DNA of 64,000 bases, taken from assembly GCF_013280595.1 (NCBI RefSeq), contig NZ_JAAATY010000043.1, positions 1-64,000 on the forward strand. Direction: 5' to 3'. This DNA is from Kibdelosporangium persicum. GTDB lineage: Bacteria > Actinomycetota > Actinomycetes > Mycobacteriales > Pseudonocardiaceae. The notes under the pieces were generated by a model that had not been told where the DNA came from, did no database searches, and saw nothing but the letters and a program-made list of their open reading frames with translations. Numbering within the stretch: position 1 is the first letter of the stretch; every line of letters begins with the position of its first letter. The position numbers were made by a program, and so were the translations under genes. This document shows positions 5,787 through 44,334 of this stretch, piece after piece.

Positions 5787-6311
5787 TCAGGGCGTCCACG
5801 GCACGTTCTCGGAGCCGTTCAACAGCACTGTGAAGACCCCCTTGGCGCCGGTGCGGAAGCCCACCGACAAGGCGTATCCGATGGCGGCGTCGGCGGGTTG
5901 CGAGTCGTCGCGCTCGGCCAGCCAGTGCACGGTGAACTTACCGTCGTCATCCATGTGGAACGAGGCGATCGTGGCGCCATTCCGCCTGAGCTGCGTGGCG
6001 TCATCGTCGTCCGGCGTGAACTCGTAGCGTGTTCCGGCGAGAGTCAGCTCGACTCGGTGCGAGCGACGAGTCAGTTTTCCTGGCCCAGGTCGCAACTCGG
6101 CCTCGACGCCGTCGACCGACATGGTCAAGTGGTCGGCGTTCCTGGAGCCGATCGGCACGAACTTGTTCAGCTCCGCATCCGGAGAACGCCGCAGGACGAC
6201 CGTGGGAACCTGCTTCCCGGAGACCTCGACCACGCCCTGCTCGGCGTTGGTGCGGATCGTCAGTTCGTCGTAGTACGCGTCGTCGACAGTGCGGGTGCTG
6301 GTGAAGTGCAT
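5787..6311 (-). CDS. Hypothetical protein, 174 aa
   Basis: Soluble protein without signal peptide or membrane segment, and without a motif I recognise. It is rich in beta-forming segments (VEVSGKQVPTVVLRRS, HRVELTLAGTRYEFTPDDDD) with an acidic patch. The ATG at 6311 is preceded by GAGTAGG and gives the start MHFTSTRTV; the longer reading frame upstream has poor composition. Same strand as the unknown 391-residue gene and the EAR gene, but separated by 290 bp, so probably a separate unit. Confidence 0.65.
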   Translation of the reverse strand: MHFTSTRTVDDAYYDELTIRTNAEQGVVEVSGKQVPTVVLRRSPDAELNKFVPIGSRNADHLTMSVDGVEAELRPGPGKLTRRSHRVELTLAGTRYEFTPDDDDATQLRRNGATIASFHMDDDGKFTVHWLAERDDSQPADAAIGYALSVGFRTGAKGVFTVLLNGSENVPWTP

Positions 6312-17030: not shown

Positions 17031-17083
17031 TTCGCCCGGTGAAAGACGAGTGCCCCCGGCAGGAATCGAACCTGCGACACACG
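17031..17083. repeat. Left attachment site (tRNA 3'-end remnant)
   Basis: Identical over 53 bp to 29512-29564. Similarity continues with TTTAGGAA after a one-base gap, then stops. From 17052 it corresponds to the T arm and acceptor end of tRNA-Arg. Reading onward on the minus strand gives no acceptable D arm, so it is a remnant rather than a second tRNA. Confidence 0.85.
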
Positions 17084-17323
17084 TTTAGGAATGCGTGTTT
17101 CTGCTACACTGACCGTCTCTACCTGGGCATTCGTGACACGTCAGCTCGCACCACGGTCGCCAGAGCCGCGGTTGGTCCCCAGTTCGCGCCACGACCCGCA
17201 CCACGCCACTGTCCCGAACTTCTACATGGGGGTCGCGTCATGCGAGAGCGTGAGAGGCGTCACAATAGTCAGAGCCCTTCATTTTGATCATGACGATACG
17301 CCTTCGATCGGAGATGCGACCAG

Positions 17324-19114
17324 GTGGCGACAAAGCCCACTTCAGCTATACCCAACGAAGTCCTGCTACTAACGACTCGCCTGAGTCAGCGCAAAGCGAC
17401 CACTTACCCGGAAATATCAAACGAAGACTATTTTCTTATCAGTTCTATCGACACCGTACTGCGGTCGCGGAACTTGTCTAGTCGCCAGATCGAAGACGGC
17501 ATTGTAGAAGGTGCTGACGACGGAGGAATTGATGCAGTATATGTATTTGTCGACGGCCGCCTGGTAGAGGATCCGTCGGATATCGTTGTCAGTGATTCGC
17601 CCCAGATTGAGCTTGAAGTAATTCAAGCGAAATTGGAAAGCGGTTTCAAGGAAGTCGCTATCCAGAAACTCCTCGATCATCTTCCACTTCTATTGCAACT
17701 TGACCCGAAGACCGACCTTGCGAAAGAGTTCAATGCTCGCGTAAGGGAACGATTCGAGTCTTTTCGGGCTGTCTACCTTGCTGCCGCCGATCGGATGCCT
17801 GAGCTAGTTGTTTCCGTTAGGTATGCGACCAAGGCGGCTGATCCGCCAAATGATAAAGTGAAAGCGAAGGTGGGCCGTCTTCGAACTGTCATAGGAAACG
17901 AGTTTCCAAACGCAACAGTCGACGTCGATCTAGTCGGCGCGGCAGCTTTGAACGCCTTGGCGCGTGAGCGGAAATCCTCCACTTTGACGCTGCGTCTTTC
18001 GGAAAGCCCCATGTCGCCAGAGAAGGGTGGTCTCATTTGCCTTGTCAGCCTTTCTGATTACTTCGATTTCATTACTGACGAGGAACGTCGGCTTCGAGAC
18101 GCGATCTTTGAAGAGAATGTGCGAGACTATGAAGGCTACACCGTTGTAAATAGAGGGATATCTGATTCGCTCCGGCAAGGTGACGCCGCTAATGCTGACT
18201 TCTGGTGGCTAAACAATGGTGTGACGGTTATTGGCAAGAGACTGCAGCCGTCTGGCAAGCGACTCGACATCGAGGATCCGCAGATTGTGAATGGACTGCA
18301 GACCTCTCGGACTATCTATCAGTACTTTCACAATCTAACTCGGCAAAGCAAAGCTAGCTCGGCTGCTGCGCAAGAAGGGAAGGTTCGTCAACTTCTGGTC
18401 CGAGTTATCGAGACACAGGACGACACGGTGGCCTCTCAGATTATCAAGGCAACCAACAGTCAGAATCTAGTTTCGGCTGCGAATCTGCGCTCCGCCGAAC
18501 CTTTTCAACGTGATATAGAGGAATATTTTCAGCGGCACAACCTCTATTACGAGCGTAAGAAGAATCACTACAAAAACCTTGGAAAACCTCGGGCTGACAT
18601 AGTCGAAGTTCTCGAACTTGCTCAGGCCGTAGGGTCGATCTTGCTCCAGCAACCTAACACTGCTCGGGGCATGCCTTCATCGCTTGTGCGCGGAAAATTG
18701 TACGAACGCGTGTTTAGCGACAAGACTCCGTTGGATGCCTATTATAATTGTTTGCAAGTAGTGAGAATGGTTGATAGCTATCTATCGCGACTGGGCGTCG
18801 CAAGCGGTCGACATGATAGGTCGAATATTCGATTTCACCTTGCGCGTGCGGCAGCTGCTTTTGCGCTCACCTCGTCAAGGCCTAGGGCGCAAGCTTTGGC
18901 TAAGATCGATCTGAGTGTGTTTGATGACACATTCTTGAAGAAGGTTCAAGACTGGGTAATTACAGCCCGCGAGGCTGCGGCAAAGGCGGTGGGCACAAGC
19001 GACACCAGCGTCCTAGCGAAGAGTGTTGAGTGGGCGAACGAAATTAATCGCAGGCTGAGTCGCTATACAGATAAAGGTCGTTGGCCGAAGCAAATTTCTG
19101 TCAGTTCGAAGTGA
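17324..19114 (+). CDS. AIPR-family phage-resistance protein with nuclease-like N terminus
   Basis: 596 residues. The AIPR (abortive infection phage resistance) signature is clear: WWLNNGVTVIG (about 294-304) and PQIVNGLQT (about 319-327), followed by the family's helical C terminus. Upstream, GGIDAVYVFVDG (67-78) and ELEVIQAK (96-103) have the D...ExK layout of a PD-(D/E)xK nuclease core. GTG start with GGAGA nine bases upstream. Its GC, visibly close to 50 percent, and codon use are unlike the chromosome and the transfer genes, indicating separate acquisition. A phage-defence role is inferred from the family. Confidence 0.88.
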   Translation: MATKPTSAIPNEVLLLTTRLSQRKATTYPEISNEDYFLISSIDTVLRSRNLSSRQIEDGIVEGADDGGIDAVYVFVDGRLVEDPSDIVVSDSPQIELEVIQAKLESGFKEVAIQKLLDHLPLLLQLDPKTDLAKEFNARVRERFESFRAVYLAAADRMPELVVSVRYATKAADPPNDKVKAKVGRLRTVIGNEFPNATVDVDLVGAAALNALARERKSSTLTLRLSESPMSPEKGGLICLVSLSDYFDFITDEERRLRDAIFEENVRDYEGYTVVNRGISDSLRQGDAANADFWWLNNGVTVIGKRLQPSGKRLDIEDPQIVNGLQTSRTIYQYFHNLTRQSKASSAAAQEGKVRQLLVRVIETQDDTVASQIIKATNSQNLVSAANLRSAEPFQRDIEEYFQRHNLYYERKKNHYKNLGKPRADIVEVLELAQAVGSILLQQPNTARGMPSSLVRGKLYERVFSDKTPLDAYYNCLQVVRMVDSYLSRLGVASGRHDRSNIRFHLARAAAAFALTSSRPRAQALAKIDLSVFDDTFLKKVQDWVITAREAAAKAVGTSDTSVLAKSVEWANEINRRLSRYTDKGRWPKQISVSSK

Positions 19115-22503: not shown

Positions 22504-22832
22504 CGATCAGCCTTACGCCGCACCAGGTTCTCGCTGGTGTCGGGATCTTGCTCGCGTTGTTCCTGGTTTGGCGAGTTGGTGCGAAGAGGGCGCGGGCGGC
22601 TGTTGAGGCGGCGCGGGCCGGTGCGCGGCTGGTGTCGTTGGCTGGTCGGGTGGCGTTCACTGCCGCGTTGTTGGTGGGTGTGCAGTGGCTGGTGATCACG
22701 CATCCGGGCAACCTGACGTTGCTTCTGGTGGTGCTCGCGGTGCCGGATCTGCTCGCCGGGTACGTCCTGACCAAGGCGCTGACCGTGTCCACCATGGATG
22801 GACACCGGCGAAGCGGCGGTGAGCGACGATGA
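22500..22832 (+). CDS. Small membrane protein of the transfer operon
   Basis: 110 residues with hydrophobic segments near the N terminus (HQVLAGVGILLALFLVW) and in the middle (FTAALLVGVQWLVI, LTLLLVVLAVPDLLAGYVL). Overlaps both neighbours by ATGA. No domain is recognised; position suggests a Spd-type spread protein acting with TraB between hyphal compartments. Confidence 0.68.
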   Translation: MTISLTPHQVLAGVGILLALFLVWRVGAKRARAAVEAARAGARLVSLAGRVAFTAALLVGVQWLVITHPGNLTLLLVVLAVPDLLAGYVLTKALTVSTMDGHRRSGGERR

Positions 22833-23698
22833 GCACGAAACATGTTGCGCAGCAACAGGGATCGGAAAGGCTGGTCGCCTTCGGGCGGCCAGCCGGCCGA
22901 TCTGGCAACCGTGCCGAAAGACTGGCGCGGGACGCGGCCGAAGCGGCGGAGTTGCGCGCGTACCAGACGCATCCGGATGTGGTCGCGTTGCGTGTGGAGC
23001 AGGTCCGGGCGCAAGTGGACCGGTTGTGCTGGGCGGGGATCATGCTCGGTCTGGCGTTCACGATGACCAATGTTCAGCAGTTCGCCGCCGCTGGAGCGGC
23101 CGCTTGGTCCTTGCCGTGGCTGGCCGCGTGGGTGCTCGATCCGACAGTGTCTCTGGTGTTGCTGGCGATTCTGCGGGCGGAGCAGGTCACCGCGCGGTAC
23201 CAGGTCAGTACGGGAGTGTGGGTGCGGCGCGCGAAGTGGTTCACGCTTGCCGCCACGTACGTGATGAATACGTGGTCGTCTTATGTGGCCGGGTCGCTGT
23301 CGGGGATCGTGTTGCATTCGGTGCCGCCGCTGGTGGTGTTCGTCGCGGCGGAGGCGATCACCGATCTGCGGGACAAGCTCACCGAGGCGGTCACGGCGGC
23401 GTTCACCAACGCAGCGGTCGTGAACACGCCACCCGAACCGCAGCCTGTTCACGAGCCTAGTGCCGACAAGCCGCCTGCGACCCGTCAACCGGCCGCACGT
23501 CGGCGCAAGTTGTTCGATGACTACTTGACGGAAGCTCGCGCCGCGTGGCAGCCCGGCGTGGTGGTCACCCCGGCATGGGTTCGTCAGGTCACCACGTGCT
23601 CGCGTGGTCTGTCGTCGCGGTTGGCGGCTGCGCTGGTGTCCGAACTGGAGTCGCCTGCTGACTCTGGTGAGACACCGGAAAGCGAGGCACCGCAATGA
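22829..23698 (+). CDS. Spd/DUF2637-like membrane protein
   Basis: 289 residues. A charged N-terminal helix precedes a cluster of three or four membrane segments (LCWAGIMLGLAFTMTNV, SLPWLAAWVLDPTVSLVLLAIL, LVVFVAAEAI). A Pro-rich linker leads to a small C-terminal domain (RKLFDDYLTEARAAWQPGVVVTPAW) that looks like a DNA-binding helix bundle. The membrane part resembles DUF2637/spread proteins that usually precede the FtsK-like translocase in AICEs. Coupled to traB by ATGA. Confidence 0.7.
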   Translation: MSTKHVAQQQGSERLVAFGRPAGRSGNRAERLARDAAEAAELRAYQTHPDVVALRVEQVRAQVDRLCWAGIMLGLAFTMTNVQQFAAAGAAAWSLPWLAAWVLDPTVSLVLLAILRAEQVTARYQVSTGVWVRRAKWFTLAATYVMNTWSSYVAGSLSGIVLHSVPPLVVFVAAEAITDLRDKLTEAVTAAFTNAAVVNTPPEPQPVHEPSADKPPATRQPAARRRKLFDDYLTEARAAWQPGVVVTPAWVRQVTTCSRGLSSRLAAALVSELESPADSGETPESEAPQ

Positions 23699-25917
23699 CA
23701 CTCGACCATGAGTCACGTGATCTCGTGCACACCGACGTTCACGACGTGGTGCATGTCGGTCCGGTGTACGACGCGGAACTGGTGGACGGTGGCGCTCCAA
23801 CGGGTGTTCTCCGGCCGCCGTTGCGGCACCGGCTGGCGTCGTGGTGGCAGCGTTCACCGCGCGTGCCACGCGCGTTCAAGTCCCGCGCGCAGGCCGTTCA
23901 GGCACTCAAGCACGCCGTGGTGGCCGTGCTGCGGTCCCCGTTCCGGTTCTTGAGCGCGGTGGCGCGTGGCGTGGTGGTCGTGGTCCGGGCGTGGCGTCGG
24001 TGGGTCACCGTGCGGGACTACCGCACGGCGGCCGAAGAGGCGGCCAAGCTGGCGGACAAGTTCACGGACATCCGTGCGTTGACGCTGTTCCGCTGGAAGG
24101 TCACCACCGCCGTCACGGTCGCTGCGGTCGTCGTAATGCTGGTGGCTGACGTGCTTTACGGAGCGCGAGCGCTGTGGATCACCGGTCTGGCCGGTGCGGT
24201 CACGTTGGCGATCGCGGGACGGCGTAAGGACGGCAGTCCGGGACGTAAAGCCGCGTTGGCCGGGCCGCGCACGCTGACGTGGACGATGGACCCTCAAGTC
24301 CTCGTGGACGCATTCCGGGACGCGAAGCTGATCGGCAAGGACGAAACCCTGCGGCTGGTCGAGCGCGCCACCCGCTCCGGTGACGGGTGGGCGATGACCG
24401 TGGATCTCCCGGCCACCCGCAAAGCCGCCGACGTGATCAAACACCGCGAAGCACTCGCGTCCGCGCTCGCCGTGGACGAAGTGCAGCTCATCGTGGAACG
24501 CGTGCGCGGCGCGGGTGGTCATGCCGGGCGGGTGGCGATGTGGGTAGCCGACTCCGACCCGTACGCCAAGGACTCGCCGCCGACACCACTGCTGCGGGTC
24601 GAGTCGTGGGACGCGTGGCGGCCGGTGCCGTTCGGCCTTGATCCCCGCGACCGGCGGATTGATCTGCCGCTGGTGTGGACCTCGCTGCTGATCGGTGCGC
24701 TACCGAGGCATGGCAAGACTATGGCGGAACGGTTGGCCGCCGCCGGATTGATCCTCGACCCGCACGCGCGGTTGTATGTGGCGGATTTCAAGGGCGGCAA
24801 GGACTGGAAGGCGTGCGAGCAGTGCGCGCACCGGTTCTTCTCCGGCGACGACACCGACCACGTCCTGATGTTCAAGGCGTGGCTGGAATCGCTCGTAGTC
24901 GACGTGCAAGGCCGGTACGCGCGGATGCAACAGTTGGACGACCAGATCTGCCCGGAATCGAAGATCACCCCAGCGATCAGCCGCGACTCTAGTGTGGACA
25001 TGCCGGTCACCGCGGTCATCATCGACGAAGCCCATATCCCGTTGGAAGACACGACAACCGTAGAAGTCGATGGAAAGAAGGTGAAACTGGGCGACTACAT
25101 CGGAGACCTGTTGACATGGTTGGTGCGCAAGGGCCCGGCGGCGGGCATCGTGGTCATCGCAGCCACCCAGCGGCCGGACTCGAACACCATCCCGTCACGG
25201 CTGCGGGCGGTTCTGGGCTCGCGGTTCGCGCTGCGGGTGATGGACTGGCGGGACTCCAACATCATCCTCGGCGAGCAGATGAACACCCGAGGTTATGACG
25301 CCTCCACTCTGCTCGCTTCCCACAAGGGTGTCGGGATTCTCCGGCCGGACGGCGAAACCAGCCAAGGCGACGTGTTGGCGATGACGCTGCGCACCTACTA
25401 CATGTCCAACCACGACTGGCAGACCATCTGCCAACGCGGCCGGGCACTACGCGAAGCCGCCGGAACATTGACCGGGCACGCCGCCGGACACGACACCGCA
25501 CTGGAGCTGGACCACGCTGCTGTGGTCAAGGCCATCGGCAGCAGCACAGGCGACGAAGCCGACATGATGGTGGGCTTGGCTGAGCCGCTCGCGTCCGTTG
25601 TGGCGTATCTCGGCGACGACATCGACAGCCGGGCGTTTGTGCCCACGGCCGAGCTGATCGACGCGTTAGGAGTGGAGCCGACCGCATTCGGTCGGCAGAT
25701 GGCCGAGCTGGGATGCGGCTCGCGACGCGAGCGCATCCCGGCCGATGACGGGACGGTCCGCCAAGTGCGCGGGTACTTCACGGCCGACATCCGCGCCGCC
25801 GCCCGCAACGATGGCGCGACCGACGGTGCCGAGCGAACCCGTCACAGGGCACGGGACAACCCGTCACAGCGGACCGAACCTGTCCCATCCGCCGTGACGG
25901 GTAGAAAGCCCCGTTGA
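23695..25917 (+). CDS. FtsK/SpoIIIE-like conjugative DNA translocase (TraB type)
   Basis: 740 residues. Two membrane segments around residues 134-174 anchor a cytoplasmic motor. Walker A is GALPRHGKT (334-342), Walker B VIIDEAH (about 441-447), and VVIAATQRPDSNTIP is the conserved region after it. The last about 100 residues (VVAYLGDDIDSRAFVPTAELIDAL to MAELGC) look like the winged-helix domain with which TraB reads 8-bp clt repeats. In Streptomyces this single protein moves double-stranded DNA between mycelia. Seven copies of a 9-bp repeat begin within its 3' end. Confidence 0.9.
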   Translation: MTLDHESRDLVHTDVHDVVHVGPVYDAELVDGGAPTGVLRPPLRHRLASWWQRSPRVPRAFKSRAQAVQALKHAVVAVLRSPFRFLSAVARGVVVVVRAWRRWVTVRDYRTAAEEAAKLADKFTDIRALTLFRWKVTTAVTVAAVVVMLVADVLYGARALWITGLAGAVTLAIAGRRKDGSPGRKAALAGPRTLTWTMDPQVLVDAFRDAKLIGKDETLRLVERATRSGDGWAMTVDLPATRKAADVIKHREALASALAVDEVQLIVERVRGAGGHAGRVAMWVADSDPYAKDSPPTPLLRVESWDAWRPVPFGLDPRDRRIDLPLVWTSLLIGALPRHGKTMAERLAAAGLILDPHARLYVADFKGGKDWKACEQCAHRFFSGDDTDHVLMFKAWLESLVVDVQGRYARMQQLDDQICPESKITPAISRDSSVDMPVTAVIIDEAHIPLEDTTTVEVDGKKVKLGDYIGDLLTWLVRKGPAAGIVVIAATQRPDSNTIPSRLRAVLGSRFALRVMDWRDSNIILGEQMNTRGYDASTLLASHKGVGILRPDGETSQGDVLAMTLRTYYMSNHDWQTICQRGRALREAAGTLTGHAAGHDTALELDHAAVVKAIGSSTGDEADMMVGLAEPLASVVAYLGDDIDSRAFVPTAELIDALGVEPTAFGRQMAELGCGSRRERIPADDGTVRQVRGYFTADIRAAARNDGATDGAERTRHRARDNPSQRTEPVPSAVTGRKPR

Positions 25918-25979
25918 ACTGGAAAAACAACGACGTGACGGGTGTGACGGGTCGCTGCATGACCCGTCACACCCGTCAC
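25837..25979. promoter_or_regulatory. Putative clt transfer locus: seven GTGACGGGT repeats
   Basis: The 9-mer GTGACGGGT occurs at 25894, 25935 and 25944, and its complement ACCCGTCAC at 25837, 25859, 25962 and 25971, seven exact copies in 143 bp. The first three are inside the 3' end of traB. The last four form a perfect 19-bp inverted repeat (25935-25953 with 25961-25979, 7-nt loop), which may also end the traB transcript. Short repeats next to traB are the hallmark of clt sites recognised by TraB. Confidence 0.72.
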
Positions 25980-26000: not shown

Positions 26001-26489
26001 TTAAAGCCGCACCAGTGTGAAGGTGGCCGATTCCGTATCCCTGCCGCAGCTGTAGAGCATGTGCCACGCCAGGTGCCCCGGCCCGTGCCGCGCGCGTGCC
26101 CGACGCTCACGTTTGATGCCAACAGCGCGGTTCGGCATCGCGGCTATCTCACGAGGGATGTCGGCGAACACCGCGAAGCCAAAAGCGAGGATGTCCGTCC
26201 GCAGATCCTCGTCAAGATCCTCAGCGAGACCGATCGTCCCGCGCACTGCGTCCGACGAGTCAAACCCGACACCAACCGCGCCACCAAGGCCCTCAGCGAC
26301 CGTTGCGGATACCTCGAAGACATCCACCCCACTGTCCGCAGCGAGCGCGACCATCCTGAGGTATGGCGTTGCCGCGCGCAGCGGACCGTCGCTCGGATAA
26401 TCCGCGTCGAGGTACCTACGTCGCAACTCAACACCGCAGACATAGCACAGCTTCGCGCGTGCGTGAGTCGACGTCCGATTCCTGGCCAT
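26001..26489 (-). CDS. Hypothetical protein, 162 aa
   Basis: Unrecognised soluble protein with an N-terminal KLCYVCGVELRRR segment that could be half of a zinc site, then a helical acidic domain (RMVALAADSGVDVFEVSATVAEGLGG) and a basic tail (KRERRARARHGPGH). ATG at 26489 has AGGGA nine bases upstream. Convergent to traB and 17 bp downstream of the next minus-strand gene, probably one operon. It occupies the place where AICEs often carry replication genes, but shows no Rep or primase motif. Confidence 0.6.
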   Translation of the reverse strand: MARNRTSTHARAKLCYVCGVELRRRYLDADYPSDGPLRAATPYLRMVALAADSGVDVFEVSATVAEGLGGAVGVGFDSSDAVRGTIGLAEDLDEDLRTDILAFGFAVFADIPREIAAMPNRAVGIKRERRARARHGPGHLAWHMLYSCGRDTESATFTLVRL

Positions 26490-26506
26490 CACCAACCATC
26501 CCTGCG

Positions 26507-26957: not shown

Positions 26958-27142
26958 CGTAGCCCGGCGGGGATGGCACGAAGGAAGAATCATCGCCGCC
27001 GGGTAGCCTGTGGAACTGGTTAATATCGGTCATGTAAGACTGAAATCAGTATCGAGAGTTTCGGACTCACGAGGAAACGACGTGCCCACGCCGTGCGGAC
27101 GACTTGGGCACGACATATCGAGAGCTTCGGGAGGGCTGACGG

Positions 27143-27853
27143 ATGCCAGAGGGTGTCGGCGCTACGGGACCACTGCGGACTGTGCTGGAACAGCGGATCA
27201 GAGAACGTAGGCAGACGTTCGAAGAGTTCGCAGAGTATGCCGAGACCTTCGCTCGCGAGCACGACGAACCAGGCACGCTGAGTCATCGTCACGTGCAACG
27301 GCTTGTGGCTGGTCGAATGTCGGCGGAAAGTCTGCGACCTGCTACCGTGCGCCTGCTCGAAAGAATCTTCGAAACTGGTATCGATGAACTTCTTTCGGCG
27401 CCGCATGAGGTTTCGGGGAATCCTCAGTTTCAACTCTCGTATGCACTCAGAGTCGCGGTCGCTGTCGTTGTGAGGGACTCCAAGGTGCTCGTAGTGTGCA
27501 GGAGAGGCGACGACGGCAACGGGATTTCATGGCAGTTTCCGGCGGGGATAGTCAAGCCGGGAATGTCGGCGGAGACCGTTGCGATCAGGGAGACTCTAGG
27601 GGAAACCGGCGTGCACTGCTCAGTGGCGCGAAAACTTGGTAGCCGCGTACATCCCGTCACCAACGTCGTATGCGAGTACATTCTGTGTGACTATCTGACG
27701 GGTGATGCGCAGAACGTGGATGTTGTTGAGAACGTTGGTGTGGCCTGGATTGACAGGGATCAGTTGGGCCGTTTCATACCAGCTGATCAGGTATACCCGC
27801 CTGTGCTCGAAGCGCTACGCCTTACGTCCCTACTCGCTTCGAGTGCAAGCTGA
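27143..27853 (+). CDS. XRE-type HTH plus NUDIX domain protein (second paralogue)
   Basis: 236 residues. The N-terminal helix-turn-helix region is LRTVLEQRIRERRQTFEEFAEYA to SHRHVQRLVAGRMSAESLRPATVRLLERIF. The NUDIX domain has GIVKPGMSAETVAIRETLGE then TGV; the 40 residues before and after are closely similar to the gene at 20493-21155 (CRRGDDG.GISWQFPAG, NRVHPVTNV-like stretches). The ATG lies after a GGAGG box. The end overlaps the convergent integrase gene by 32 bp, an unusual arrangement that may couple their expression through antisense transcription. Confidence 0.82.
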   Translation: MPEGVGATGPLRTVLEQRIRERRQTFEEFAEYAETFAREHDEPGTLSHRHVQRLVAGRMSAESLRPATVRLLERIFETGIDELLSAPHEVSGNPQFQLSYALRVAVAVVVRDSKVLVVCRRGDDGNGISWQFPAGIVKPGMSAETVAIRETLGETGVHCSVARKLGSRVHPVTNVVCEYILCDYLTGDAQNVDVVENVGVAWIDRDQLGRFIPADQVYPPVLEALRLTSLLASSAS

Positions 27854-29393
27854 CCACTTCAGCCACTGTTGGACCGGACTTCGAGCGATCGGCGACGACC
27901 GCGCGTTTCCCACGGCTGACCGACACCAGGCCAGCCGTCTTTAGCTCTGCCACCGCGCGCTGCGCAGTTCCGAACGCGACGTGGTAGCGCTTGGCCAGAT
28001 CTGCGACTGTCGGCAATGGTGCGCCGATGGGTAGGGCACCGCAGTCGATCGCGCCGCGCAGATCGGCGGCAATCTTCTGATATGGGTTGTCCTTGGTAGA
28101 TTCCGTAGTAGACATAGGGGTGCCGGATTCGTCAATGACGACCGGTGGGCGTGGCATGCGGCCGGAAATGGTGCCCGCCGCTCGTTGGTCCGCTTCCGAC
28201 ACCCATGCCGAGTAAACCCGCAGCGTGGTCGATCCTCCGCCGCCATGACCCAGCCGACCAGCGACTGTGCGCACGTCCACACCGGCCGAAATGAGCTCGG
28301 TCGCGGAGTAGTGGCGTAGTTCGTGGATGTTCATGTCCCAGCCGAGCTTTTCGCACATCCGCCGGTAGCGCTGAGAGACTGTGTCAGGCTTCAGCCAGCT
28401 GTTGTGATCAATGTCGGGTGAGAACACTCGTCCGTGTGCCTTGATCGCCCGGGCGAATTCGGCGGCTTTGGTTTCGCACTGGTGCTTGTAGGCGCGGAGC
28501 AGGGAAACGGTCTCGGTGTCCAGAGTGATCCGCCGCTGTTGGTGCGTTTTGGTGGGTTTCTCCCAAGTATCGGCGCCGTCCTGAGCGATGCTTGTACGGA
28601 TCGAAAGGACACCGTTGTCGAGATCAAGTAGATCCCAGCGAAGCGCGCAGAGCTCTCCTCGTCGTGCTCCTGTCGTCATGGCGACCCAGACCAGCATTCC
28701 CCAGCTGAGATCCTTGAAAGCCTCGTTGACGATTGCGGCTGCTTGCTCCGGTGTGGGTGGGTGAGGATCGGGCTTGACGGCACTTGGTGTCTTTGCTTGG
28801 TCAAGCGGATTGACGGTGATCCATCCCCAGCGGACGGCGCGCTGCAGTGCCCCGCTCAGTATCCAGTGGATCTGTCGCATGGAGGATGTCGCAAGGCCCT
28901 TGCAGGTGTGGTTCTTGCATTTGTCGTTGCACTCGTGCGGGTTCTTGGTCCGGTGTTCGATGAACTTCCGTCCGCCACACCGAGCACGGCACTTGCGCAG
29001 GACTGCGTAGAACGAGTCGAAGGCTTCGCCGTTCAGCTTGCCCACTTGAAGCTTGCCGAGTACCGGACGTATGTGGTTGCGGATGTAGCCTTCGTAGGAT
29101 TTCCGCGTGGTCACGTCGACGTCGAGGAGCTCCAGATAGCGGTCCATGAGTTGGTTCACGGTCGCCTTGGTACGTGGAGTGCGTTGCTCGTCGACTCGAT
29201 TGAGCAGCTTCGTCCGAACCTTCTCGGCTTCTTTTTCAGCGTGCGGACCCGGCGGAACGGTTTCGCTGACGTAGTGCCGTCGACCTGTCAGTGGGTCGTT
29301 ACCGGCGTAGACCTTCACCCGGAGGGAGCCGCTCGGGAGCGTCTCGATCTCGCCGCGTGTGCGCCGTCTGGGCGCTGCCTTCGACGTGCCCAT
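27822..29393 (-). CDS. int: Tyrosine integrase fused to a C-terminal GntR-type winged helix
   Basis: About 523 residues. An N-terminal arm/SAM-like DNA-binding domain includes a Cys/His-rich insertion (ARCGGRKFIEHRTKNPHECND). The catalytic domain has Arg in GARRGELCALRW (about 240), HELRHYSATEL (about 356), GRLGHGGGG (about 383) and the nucleophile in LRVYSAW (about 392). After residue 430 a complete GntR helix-turn-helix follows (YQKIAADLRGAIDCGALPIG, PLPTVADLAKRYHVAFGTAQ). The ATG at 29393 lacks a Shine-Dalgarno but follows TACACT, suggesting a leaderless message. It adjoins the right att site as expected. Confidence 0.9.
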   Translation of the reverse strand: MGTSKAAPRRRTRGEIETLPSGSLRVKVYAGNDPLTGRRHYVSETVPPGPHAEKEAEKVRTKLLNRVDEQRTPRTKATVNQLMDRYLELLDVDVTTRKSYEGYIRNHIRPVLGKLQVGKLNGEAFDSFYAVLRKCRARCGGRKFIEHRTKNPHECNDKCKNHTCKGLATSSMRQIHWILSGALQRAVRWGWITVNPLDQAKTPSAVKPDPHPPTPEQAAAIVNEAFKDLSWGMLVWVAMTTGARRGELCALRWDLLDLDNGVLSIRTSIAQDGADTWEKPTKTHQQRRITLDTETVSLLRAYKHQCETKAAEFARAIKAHGRVFSPDIDHNSWLKPDTVSQRYRRMCEKLGWDMNIHELRHYSATELISAGVDVRTVAGRLGHGGGGSTTLRVYSAWVSEADQRAAGTISGRMPRPPVVIDESGTPMSTTESTKDNPYQKIAADLRGAIDCGALPIGAPLPTVADLAKRYHVAFGTAQRAVAELKTAGLVSVSRGKRAVVADRSKSGPTVAEVVSLHSKRVGT

Positions 29394-29472
29394 GGGGCGA
29401 GTGTAGACCCGGTTCGCACCATGGGTAGCCCCATGAAGACGGAGAGTGATCAACTCGGTGATCGGGATAGAC

Positions 29473-29510
29473 AACGGCTCCTGACCTGTTTGCACTGGTC
29501 AGGAGCCGTT
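29473..29510. terminator. Element-supplied hairpin downstream of tRNA-Arg
   Basis: AACGGCTCCTGACC (29473-29486) and GGTCAGGAGCCGTT (29497-29510) form a perfect 14-bp stem with a 10-nt loop. It lies one base inside the right att repeat, directly downstream of the tRNA on the minus strand, replacing the chromosomal hairpin now left at 16994-17029. Confidence 0.65.
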
Positions 29511-29511
29511 C

Positions 29512-29564
29512 TTCGCCCGGTGAAAGACGAGTGCCCCCGGCAGGAATCGAACCTGCGACACACG
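29512..29564. repeat. Right attachment site
   Basis: Exact 53-bp match to 17031-17083; covers the T arm, acceptor 3' side and about 20 bp downstream of tRNA-Arg. Integration here keeps the tRNA intact. Confidence 0.88.
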
Positions 29565-29604
29565 GTTTAGGAAACCGTTGCTCTATCCCCTGAGCTACGA
29601 GGGC
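29532..29604 (-). tRNA. tRNA-Arg (anticodon CCT)
   Basis: 73-nt cloverleaf: acceptor GCCCTCG/CGGGGGC (with a wobble pair), D arm GCTC...GAGC, anticodon loop TTCCTAA with CCT, and T loop in GGTTCGATTCC. CCA is not encoded. It serves as the integration site of the element. Confidence 0.93.
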
Positions 29605-43374: not shown

Positions 43375-44334
43375 ATGGCACCAGCGATCCTCGCGGAAGG
43401 CCTGGTCAAACGCTACGGCTCGATCGTCGCGCTGGACGGGCTGGACCTGGAGGTGGCAGAAGGCACCGTGATGGCCCTGCTCGGCCCCAACGGGGCGGGC
43501 AAGACAACGGCCGTACGGGTCTTCACGACACTGTTACCGCCGGACGGCGGTAAGGCGACCGTCGCCGGGCTCGACGTCGTCGCCGACGCCCGTGCGTTAC
43601 GCCGGGAGATCGGAGTCTCCGGGCAGTACGCGGCCGTCGACGAATACCTGACCGGCTTCGAGAACCTCGACATGGTCGGGCGGCTCTACCACCTGGGCGC
43701 CCGGCGAAGCCGCGAGCGGGCACGTGAACTGCTGGAGTCCTTCGACCTGGTCGAGGCGGGCGACCGGCCGGTGAAGGGCTACTCCGGCGGTATGCGGCGC
43801 CGCCTGGACCTGGCCGGAGCGCTTGTCGGCAGCGGCAAGGTGCTCTTCCTCGACGAGCCGACCACCGGCCTGGACCCGCGCGCCCGGTTCGGCCTGTGGG
43901 ACGTGGTCGAGGACCTGGTGCGGGGCGGCACGACACTGCTGCTGACCACGCAGTACATGGAGGAGGCCGAACGTCTCGCCGACCGGATCGCGGTGATCGA
44001 CCACGGCAAGGTGATCGCGCTGGGAACGGCGGACGAGTTGAAGGACCAGGTCGGCGGCGAACGAGTCGAACTCGTCCTGGCCGACGCGAACGACCTGGAG
44101 ACCGCGCGGAGCGCACTGCTCCCGATCGCGGTCGGCGAGATCCAGACCGACCGGGGCAGCCGGCGGATCACCGTGCCGGTGACGGGTGGTTCGGCCGTGC
44201 TCGTGGACGCGCTCGGCAGGTTGTCCGAGCTGTCGGTGAAAGTGCAGGACGTCGGCCTGCGACGGCCGACGCTCGACGACGTGTTCCTCGCACTGACCGG
44301 TCATGAGGCCGAGGTCGAGGAGGAGGGCAAGTGA
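43375..44334 (+). CDS. ABC transporter ATP-binding protein, DrrA type
   Basis: 319-residue ATPase of the daunorubicin-resistance exporter class. Walker A GPNGAGKT, signature YSGGMRRRLDLAGALVG, Walker B VLFLDEPTTGLDPRAR and H-loop region TTQYMEEAERLADRI. The C-terminal extension with RRPTLDDVFLALTGH is typical of DrrA. ATG at 43375 with GGGGAG upstream. Forms an exporter with the permease encoded after a short coupled ORF. Substrate unknown. Confidence 0.92.
   Translation: MAPAILAEGLVKRYGSIVALDGLDLEVAEGTVMALLGPNGAGKTTAVRVFTTLLPPDGGKATVAGLDVVADARALRREIGVSGQYAAVDEYLTGFENLDMVGRLYHLGARRSRERARELLESFDLVEAGDRPVKGYSGGMRRRLDLAGALVGSGKVLFLDEPTTGLDPRARFGLWDVVEDLVRGGTTLLLTTQYMEEAERLADRIAVIDHGKVIALGTADELKDQVGGERVELVLADANDLETARSALLPIAVGEIQTDRGSRRITVPVTGGSAVLVDALGRLSELSVKVQDVGLRRPTLDDVFLALTGHEAEVEEEGK

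Follow-up and report, generated by a model that had tools for sequence, protein, structure and literature searches.

The clt of the Streptomyces theta plasmid pWTY27, as described in an excerpt of PMC3583192, is approximately 175 bp long, comprises 16 bp within traA and 159 bp after it, and is bound by TraA, an FtsK-like Tra protein. According to the same excerpt, the clt of pJV1 has nine 9-bp repeats, and TraB of pSVH1 reads 8-bp repeats by its helix 3. The excerpt of PMC9513070 remarks that a clt motif has not been described even in the case of pSAM2, the archetype.

We consider a cluster of the 9-bp word GTGACGGGT, found at the 3' end of traB in an integrated element of Kibdelosporangium persicum, to be probably the clt of this element, i.e., the site where TraB is loaded. 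Similarly to the clt of pWTY27, the cluster reaches into the 3' end of its tra gene and is built of short direct and inverted repeats, but the pWTY27 repeats are TGACACC and CCCGCCC instead of GTGACGGGT, and their carrier is a plasmid and not an integrated element (PMC3583192, excerpt). Binding by the Tra protein is described for pWTY27, whereas for the window cluster we infer binding by TraB, as well as loading of the hexamer and a role in transfer. The cluster also resembles the 8- and 9-bp repeats that, in the excerpts of PMC3583192 and PMC4170104, are recognised by TraB (pSVH1) or required for transfer (pJV1); however, the repeat word of pJV1 is CCGCACA[C/G][C/G], and pIJ101 differs in having 5-bp repeats and a clt near korB.

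The integrated element and its repeat cluster

The window, i.e., the whole 64-kb stretch of DNA that was analysed, contains an element of 12.5 kb bounded by 56-nt direct repeats (98% identical), the right one of which lies in a tRNA-Arg(CCT) gene. Its main features are the following:

17031-17086, left attachment repeat, 56 nt long and matching 29512-29567 in direct orientation at 98% identity
22057-22503, + strand, WhiB-like gene (PF02467, 5.1e-10)
22829-23698, + strand, gene directly upstream of traB, probable membrane protein (phrog_25954, unknown function, 7.4e-9)
23695-25917, + strand, traB, FtsK/SpoIIIE-like translocase of 740 aa (phrog_1358, 1.7e-24)
25570-25812, + strand, TraB winged-helix domain, residues 626-706 (AlphaFold2 model)
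25678-25707, + strand, predicted recognition helix, residues 662-671, PTAFGRQMAE with Gly666 (third helix of the model)
26001-26495, - strand, gene convergent with traB
27143-27853, + strand, NUDIX protein of 236 aa (PF00293, 2.5e-15)
27822-29495, - strand, tyrosine integrase with a C-terminal GntR domain (PF00589, 4e-20; PF00392, 1.1e-11)
29512-29567, right attachment repeat, 98% identical to the left one and overlapping the tRNA-Arg gene
29531-29604, - strand, tRNA-Arg(CCT)

The gene upstream of traB (22829-23698) probably encodes a membrane protein, putatively of the Spd kind. The remaining products of the element include NUDIX proteins, an XRE-like protein, a nucleoside diphosphate kinase and an AIPR protein. 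The AIPR-family gene (17324-19114) adjoins the left attachment site, matches AbiU of PADLOC with 3.9e-166 and is probable phage-defence cargo. The assignment of TraB to the FtsK type is based on phrog_1358 and on the FtsK chains 2iuu, 2iut and 2ius, matched at E values of 0.004-0.009; the NCBI model NF041214 (plasmid_TraB) was matched with 2.1e-5, which is far under the cut-off of the model, and there was no Pfam match.

Attachment repeats at a tRNA gene, an integrase and a single FtsK-like Tra protein are traits that the element shares with AICEs as portrayed in the excerpt of PMC3218068, but, unlike in AICEs, no replication module was found in it by Pfam. At E <= 0.001, no Pfam family of a replication initiator (RepSA, RepAM, Prim-Pol) was detected in the element and eight related loci; the search covered 80 proteins, namely 13 from the window and 67 of the 88 from the related loci, the TraB rows and all L098 and L025 rows being left out, and gave 24 families in all. 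To our knowledge, the pSAM2-type RepSA has no Pfam model, so the absence of a replication initiator from the element is not certain. A primase-helicase gene beside the repeats was found in the element by neither Pfam nor PHROG.

The cluster itself is composed as follows:

25837-25845, - strand, repeat copy 1, GTGACGGGT, exact, within the traB frame
25859-25867, - strand, repeat copy 2, GTGACGGGT, exact, within the traB frame
25878-25886, - strand, degenerate copy, ACCTGTCCC on the + strand
25894-25902, + strand, repeat copy 3, GTGACGGGT, exact, within the traB frame
25917-25928, + strand, weak match to a second sequence element that lies between the copies in related loci, AACTGGAAAAAC, failing the strict pattern
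25935-25943, + strand, repeat copy 4, GTGACGGGT, exact
25944-25952, + strand, repeat copy 5, GTGACGGGT, exact, head to tail with copy 4
25962-25970, - strand, repeat copy 6, GTGACGGGT, exact
25971-25979, - strand, repeat copy 7, GTGACGGGT, exact, head to tail with copy 6
25935-25979, no strand, perfect inverted repeat with 19-bp arms around a 7-nt loop, resembling a terminator on the minus strand as well

Recounting at 25837-25979 confirmed the seven exact 9-mers in 143 bp (three forward and four reverse copies) that had been reported in a sequence-only reading of the window, and the perfect 19-bp inverted repeat ascribed there to four of the copies was recovered as well, with arms at 25935-25953 and 25961-25979 that are 100% complementary over 19 nt and enclose a 7-nt loop. 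The degenerate copy ACCTGTCCC is identical to the consensus of the repeats at a related locus (L085). The placement of the cluster at the end of traB needed refinement. The traB frame of the window continues across the first copies as far as 25917, leaving three exact copies inside the annotated frame, and the frame of locus L098 behaves alike; in most of the 53 cluster-bearing relatives described below, the first copy starts at the traB stop or slightly 3' of it, and the cluster is therefore intergenic.

Two further exact copies of GTGACGGGT are present in the window, at 24380 (inside traB) and at 44179; the total of nine copies compares with 1.4 expected and was reached in none of 100 shuffles. 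The whole genome (10.35 Mb) has 135 copies (68 + 67), and the reversed pattern used as a control has 89 (42 + 47). As single copies the 9-mer is thus weakly common, which by the sequence-only reading would count against a clt, but its clusters are not: pairs separated by 0-20 bp are confined to this cluster genome-wide, and the control pattern gives none. Under a simple Poisson model based on the genome density, the probability of at least seven copies in 143 bp is ~1e-23, and the seven-copy cluster is far beyond chance.

Repeat clusters at related traB loci

TraB relatives were found in 112 of 200 related genomes. The genome-wide scan kept 80 of 95 loci, and 110 traB loci were reduced to 97 with distinct C-termini. 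A cluster was called when at least five cores C[CT]GTC[ACT]C were present within -200 to +500 of the traB stop, a threshold chosen after the data had been seen, and 53 of the 97 distinct loci had one. Their repeat words are mostly GTGACGGGT, with the variants GGGACGGGT, GTGACGGC, GAGACGGGT and GGGACAGGT, and across 384 sites the core is G-n-GAC-[GA]-G with little conserved flanks. When the 191 bp around the window cluster were compared with plasmid and phage DNA, no relevant similarity was seen.

The layout of the copies is partly fixed. The left group stands at the stop codon and is followed by a forward copy ~14 bp on, by a forward pair ~42 bp further and, after ~20 bp, by a reverse pair. 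The strict layout, '<' 12-17 '>' 38-46 '>' and then '<', is met in 27/53 loci as opposed to 0.7% of random placements, and the copy order '>><<' occurs in 33 of the 53. The 42-bp gap has a second element, A[CGA]C[AT]GNGN[ACG]AA[CT], at 30 of the 53 loci, and at the same place in the other 44 loci it is absent; the pattern, which was derived from the same loci, also matched 113 of 5300 random windows. An AT-rich unwinding stretch was not apparent in this gap, with an unremarkable mean AT of 0.40 vs 0.35 for the loci.

In the 200 related genomes, the exact tandem 18-mer occurs at 17 loci, 11 of which are, by hand comparison, the 3' end of a traB like that of the window (P0001); among the rest are a primase gene (L154), clusters linked to integrases (L155, L158) and three two-copy occurrences in other settings. 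A wider pair pattern gave 69 matches in 35 of the 200 genomes and 14 control matches, implying that part of the 69 is background. Clusters of 6-11 copies were also seen beside integrase or recombinase genes (L155:2315-2446, L156:723-865 and L158:7651-8063; gene assignment by Pfam for L155 and L158, by eye for L156). No TraB match was obtained in the 3-kb loci around these clusters (L139 and L140; L158 only that far); these sites may be remnants, or may belong to elements relying on a borrowed TraB. At L162:1259-1276 (G187:C110), a tandem 18-mer lies just 5' of an 833-aa frame, the start of which resembles, by eye, a lysine/arginine/alanine-rich FtsK N-terminus.

For the 44 loci without the 9-mer cluster, scans of 8-mers gave no convincing repeat cluster of another kind, and a clt was not found. 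The palindrome TGAAATCA is located within -100 to +200 of the traB stop in 38 of these 44 loci and in none of the 53 repeat-bearing ones. It was considered as the clt of the repeat-lacking loci, a reading that was dropped as unproven: in the window it stands before the NUDIX gene, and in L151 it precedes several genes, including the serine recombinase gene after traB, so that an operator is more likely. L151 (G000:C45:30000-46000), a further element in this genome, encodes a TraB 70% identical to that of the window and lacks GTGACGGGT throughout its 16 kb. Its traB is immediately followed by a large serine recombinase gene, the check for which covered L151. The palindrome CTGAAATCAG (or TGATTTCAGC) lies before element genes at 27040-27049 of the window and at 6163, 9871, 13923 and 14179 of L151, and is a candidate operator common to both elements.

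Site type and the winged helix of TraB

In the AlphaFold2 model, TraB residues ~630-699 (41-110 of the model) form a winged helix with a pLDDT of ~94-97 and the element order H-E-H-H-E-E. Foldseek against the PDB gave no match at E <= 0.001, and the matches obtained were generic winged helices. As modelled, this C-terminal domain could read the repeats.

The site type tracks the winged-helix segment more than the rest of TraB. Trees covered 93 of the 97 distinct loci, and on the tree of residues 626-705 the site type changes four times, as compared with 9-18 times on nine other 80-residue segments; the overlapping segment 581-660 gives nine changes. On the tree of TraB before residue 600 there are 11 changes, or 13 under a stricter label, at least nine of them forced by well-supported branches. 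The pattern fits a winged-helix domain and a site that move as a unit. However, the two are neighbours on the DNA, and linkage alone could transmit them together, so binding is not proven thereby. Homologues of at least one of four window genes, often those of the NUDIX and integrase genes, are near 45 of the 53 repeat-bearing loci, and none of the 38 loci with the TGAAATCA palindrome has any of the four, some loci being short; site type therefore also goes with the element backbone.

At single positions, Gly666 is present in all 53 repeat-bearing TraB proteins, whereas the 44 repeat-lacking ones have Ala (31), Ser (3) or Gly (9), with one truncated. In a phylogeny-aware test with six independent pairs on well-supported branches, Gly666 went the same way 3.3 times on average and never the opposite way, which is not significant in a sign test (median p 0.25). 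Gln675 accompanies the position-2 variant GGGACGGGT in 5 of 10 cases vs 0 of 43 (Fisher 8.8e-5, 0.018 when corrected for the number of tests), but it changed once on the tree, and the association is not significant once phylogeny is counted.

The reading of the cluster as clt draws on its position 3' of traB, as in pWTY27, on its being unique in the genome, on its recurrence at 53 of the 97 related loci and on the tracking of the winged helix by site type; on these sequence comparisons, the clt proposed in the sequence-only reading is supported. The divergent and convergent copies would seat or orient the TraB hexamer on the excised circle, and the circle would then be pumped into the recipient as double-stranded DNA.

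The word beside phage primase genes and alternative readings

The tandem 18-mer is also present in 55 viral contigs, and clusters of GTGACGGGT lie in or after phage primase-helicase genes (L154 and L164-L218). The 61 proteins near the viral 18-mers, taken from 53 of the 55 contigs (L166 and L208 left out), include 24 that match DUF5906, 13 that match D5_N and six that match collagen repeats, in which the word is a coding accident; several contigs are near-copies, so that these counts are not independent. In one primase family, sampled as 80 of at least 600 loci, at least three GTGACGG were found within -60 to +400 of the gene end in 35 loci (22 of 52 distinct C-termini), as against 0 of 1600 random windows; the remaining 45 loci are below three, some of them with variant words. 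L154:7355-7664 (G188:C42) has 11 copies of GTGACGGGT inside a primase-polymerase frame. GTGACGGGT has the appearance of an iteron word that is widespread among replication modules of the DUF5906 type. The main rival to a clt is a replication origin, the repeats being iterons for an initiator acting in trans, encoded elsewhere (for example on a phage residing in the host or on a different element) or missed by Pfam. The viral contigs, the primase family and L154 speak for it. Against it, Pfam finds no replication protein in the element or the eight related loci, site type tracks the winged helix of TraB, and the layout of the traB clusters is found in 0 of the 55 viral contigs, a weak comparison since 36 of them have just 2-3 copies. 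We regard an origin as rather unlikely.

The other two alternatives concern transcription. The hairpin of the inverted repeat (-47 kcal/mol, z -6.7) lies between the convergent traB and 26001-26495 genes, its minus-strand stem is followed by GTCGTTGTTT and it was the sole terminator-like site found, which would suit a terminator with the remaining copies incidental. Yet 0.9 sites of this kind are to be expected by chance in the scan, three exact copies stand outside the hairpin, and the order '>><<' is limited to 33 of the 53 relatives, whereas the 9-mer unit recurs; a terminator as the whole explanation is thus very improbable, and termination may well be an added function of the inverted repeat. 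Least probable of all, with hardly any chance in our estimate, is a role of the repeats as operators bound by one of the element's own regulators: XRE, WhiB and GntR-domain proteins are indeed encoded, and the NUDIX protein might be considered too, but the cluster is located between gene 3' ends and not ahead of a gene, and the different palindrome CTGAAATCAG before the NUDIX gene and several L151 genes is the better operator candidate.

The DUF5906/D5-type primase-helicase genes resemble traB in that the 9-bp word, frequently in head-to-tail copies, comes immediately behind the part of the gene encoding a winged helix, in which helix positions 4-5 are F/W-G or F-S; they differ in encoding a replication protein and not a translocase and in the layout of the copies, and binding by the primase is likewise putative. 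The C-terminal domain of one such primase is likewise predicted to be a winged helix; its helix positions 4-5 are Phe-Ser, those of TraB Phe-Gly. Foldseek of its model against the PDB gave no match at E <= 0.001, the RFX DNA-binding domain ranking first (E 0.015). Homology of the two winged helices was not upheld by profile comparison (repeat-bearing TraB set, score 19.3 and probability 8.5%; repeat-lacking set, 6.8 and 0.2%), leaving a likeness only. That the unrelated TraB and DUF5906 primase-helicases read one word through look-alike winged helices is a doubtful proposal. If it were true, the clt could double as the origin used by the primase of a resident phage, the apparent lack of a replication gene in the elements would then be explained, and TraB could load on and move phage origins and the traB-less integrase-linked clusters (L155, L156, L158). 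The shared word, if functional, would link conjugation with phage replication, a link of which no description was found.

The new points are the repeat word itself, how widely and in which layout it occurs in integrated elements, the way it is linked to the winged helix, and the fact that phage replication genes share it. Judged by titles and the starts of abstracts among the papers listed, which is not proof of absence, the repeat word was not found in the literature; this agrees with the sequence-only reading, which called the repeat new, but the word is not private to TraB, as phage primase genes share it. Should the cluster be the clt, it would define the clt at sequence level for an entire group of integrated elements in Pseudonocardiaceae and their relatives, and dozens of natural pairs of site and domain would make TraB specificity, cross-mobilisation from element to element and chromosome transfer directly testable.
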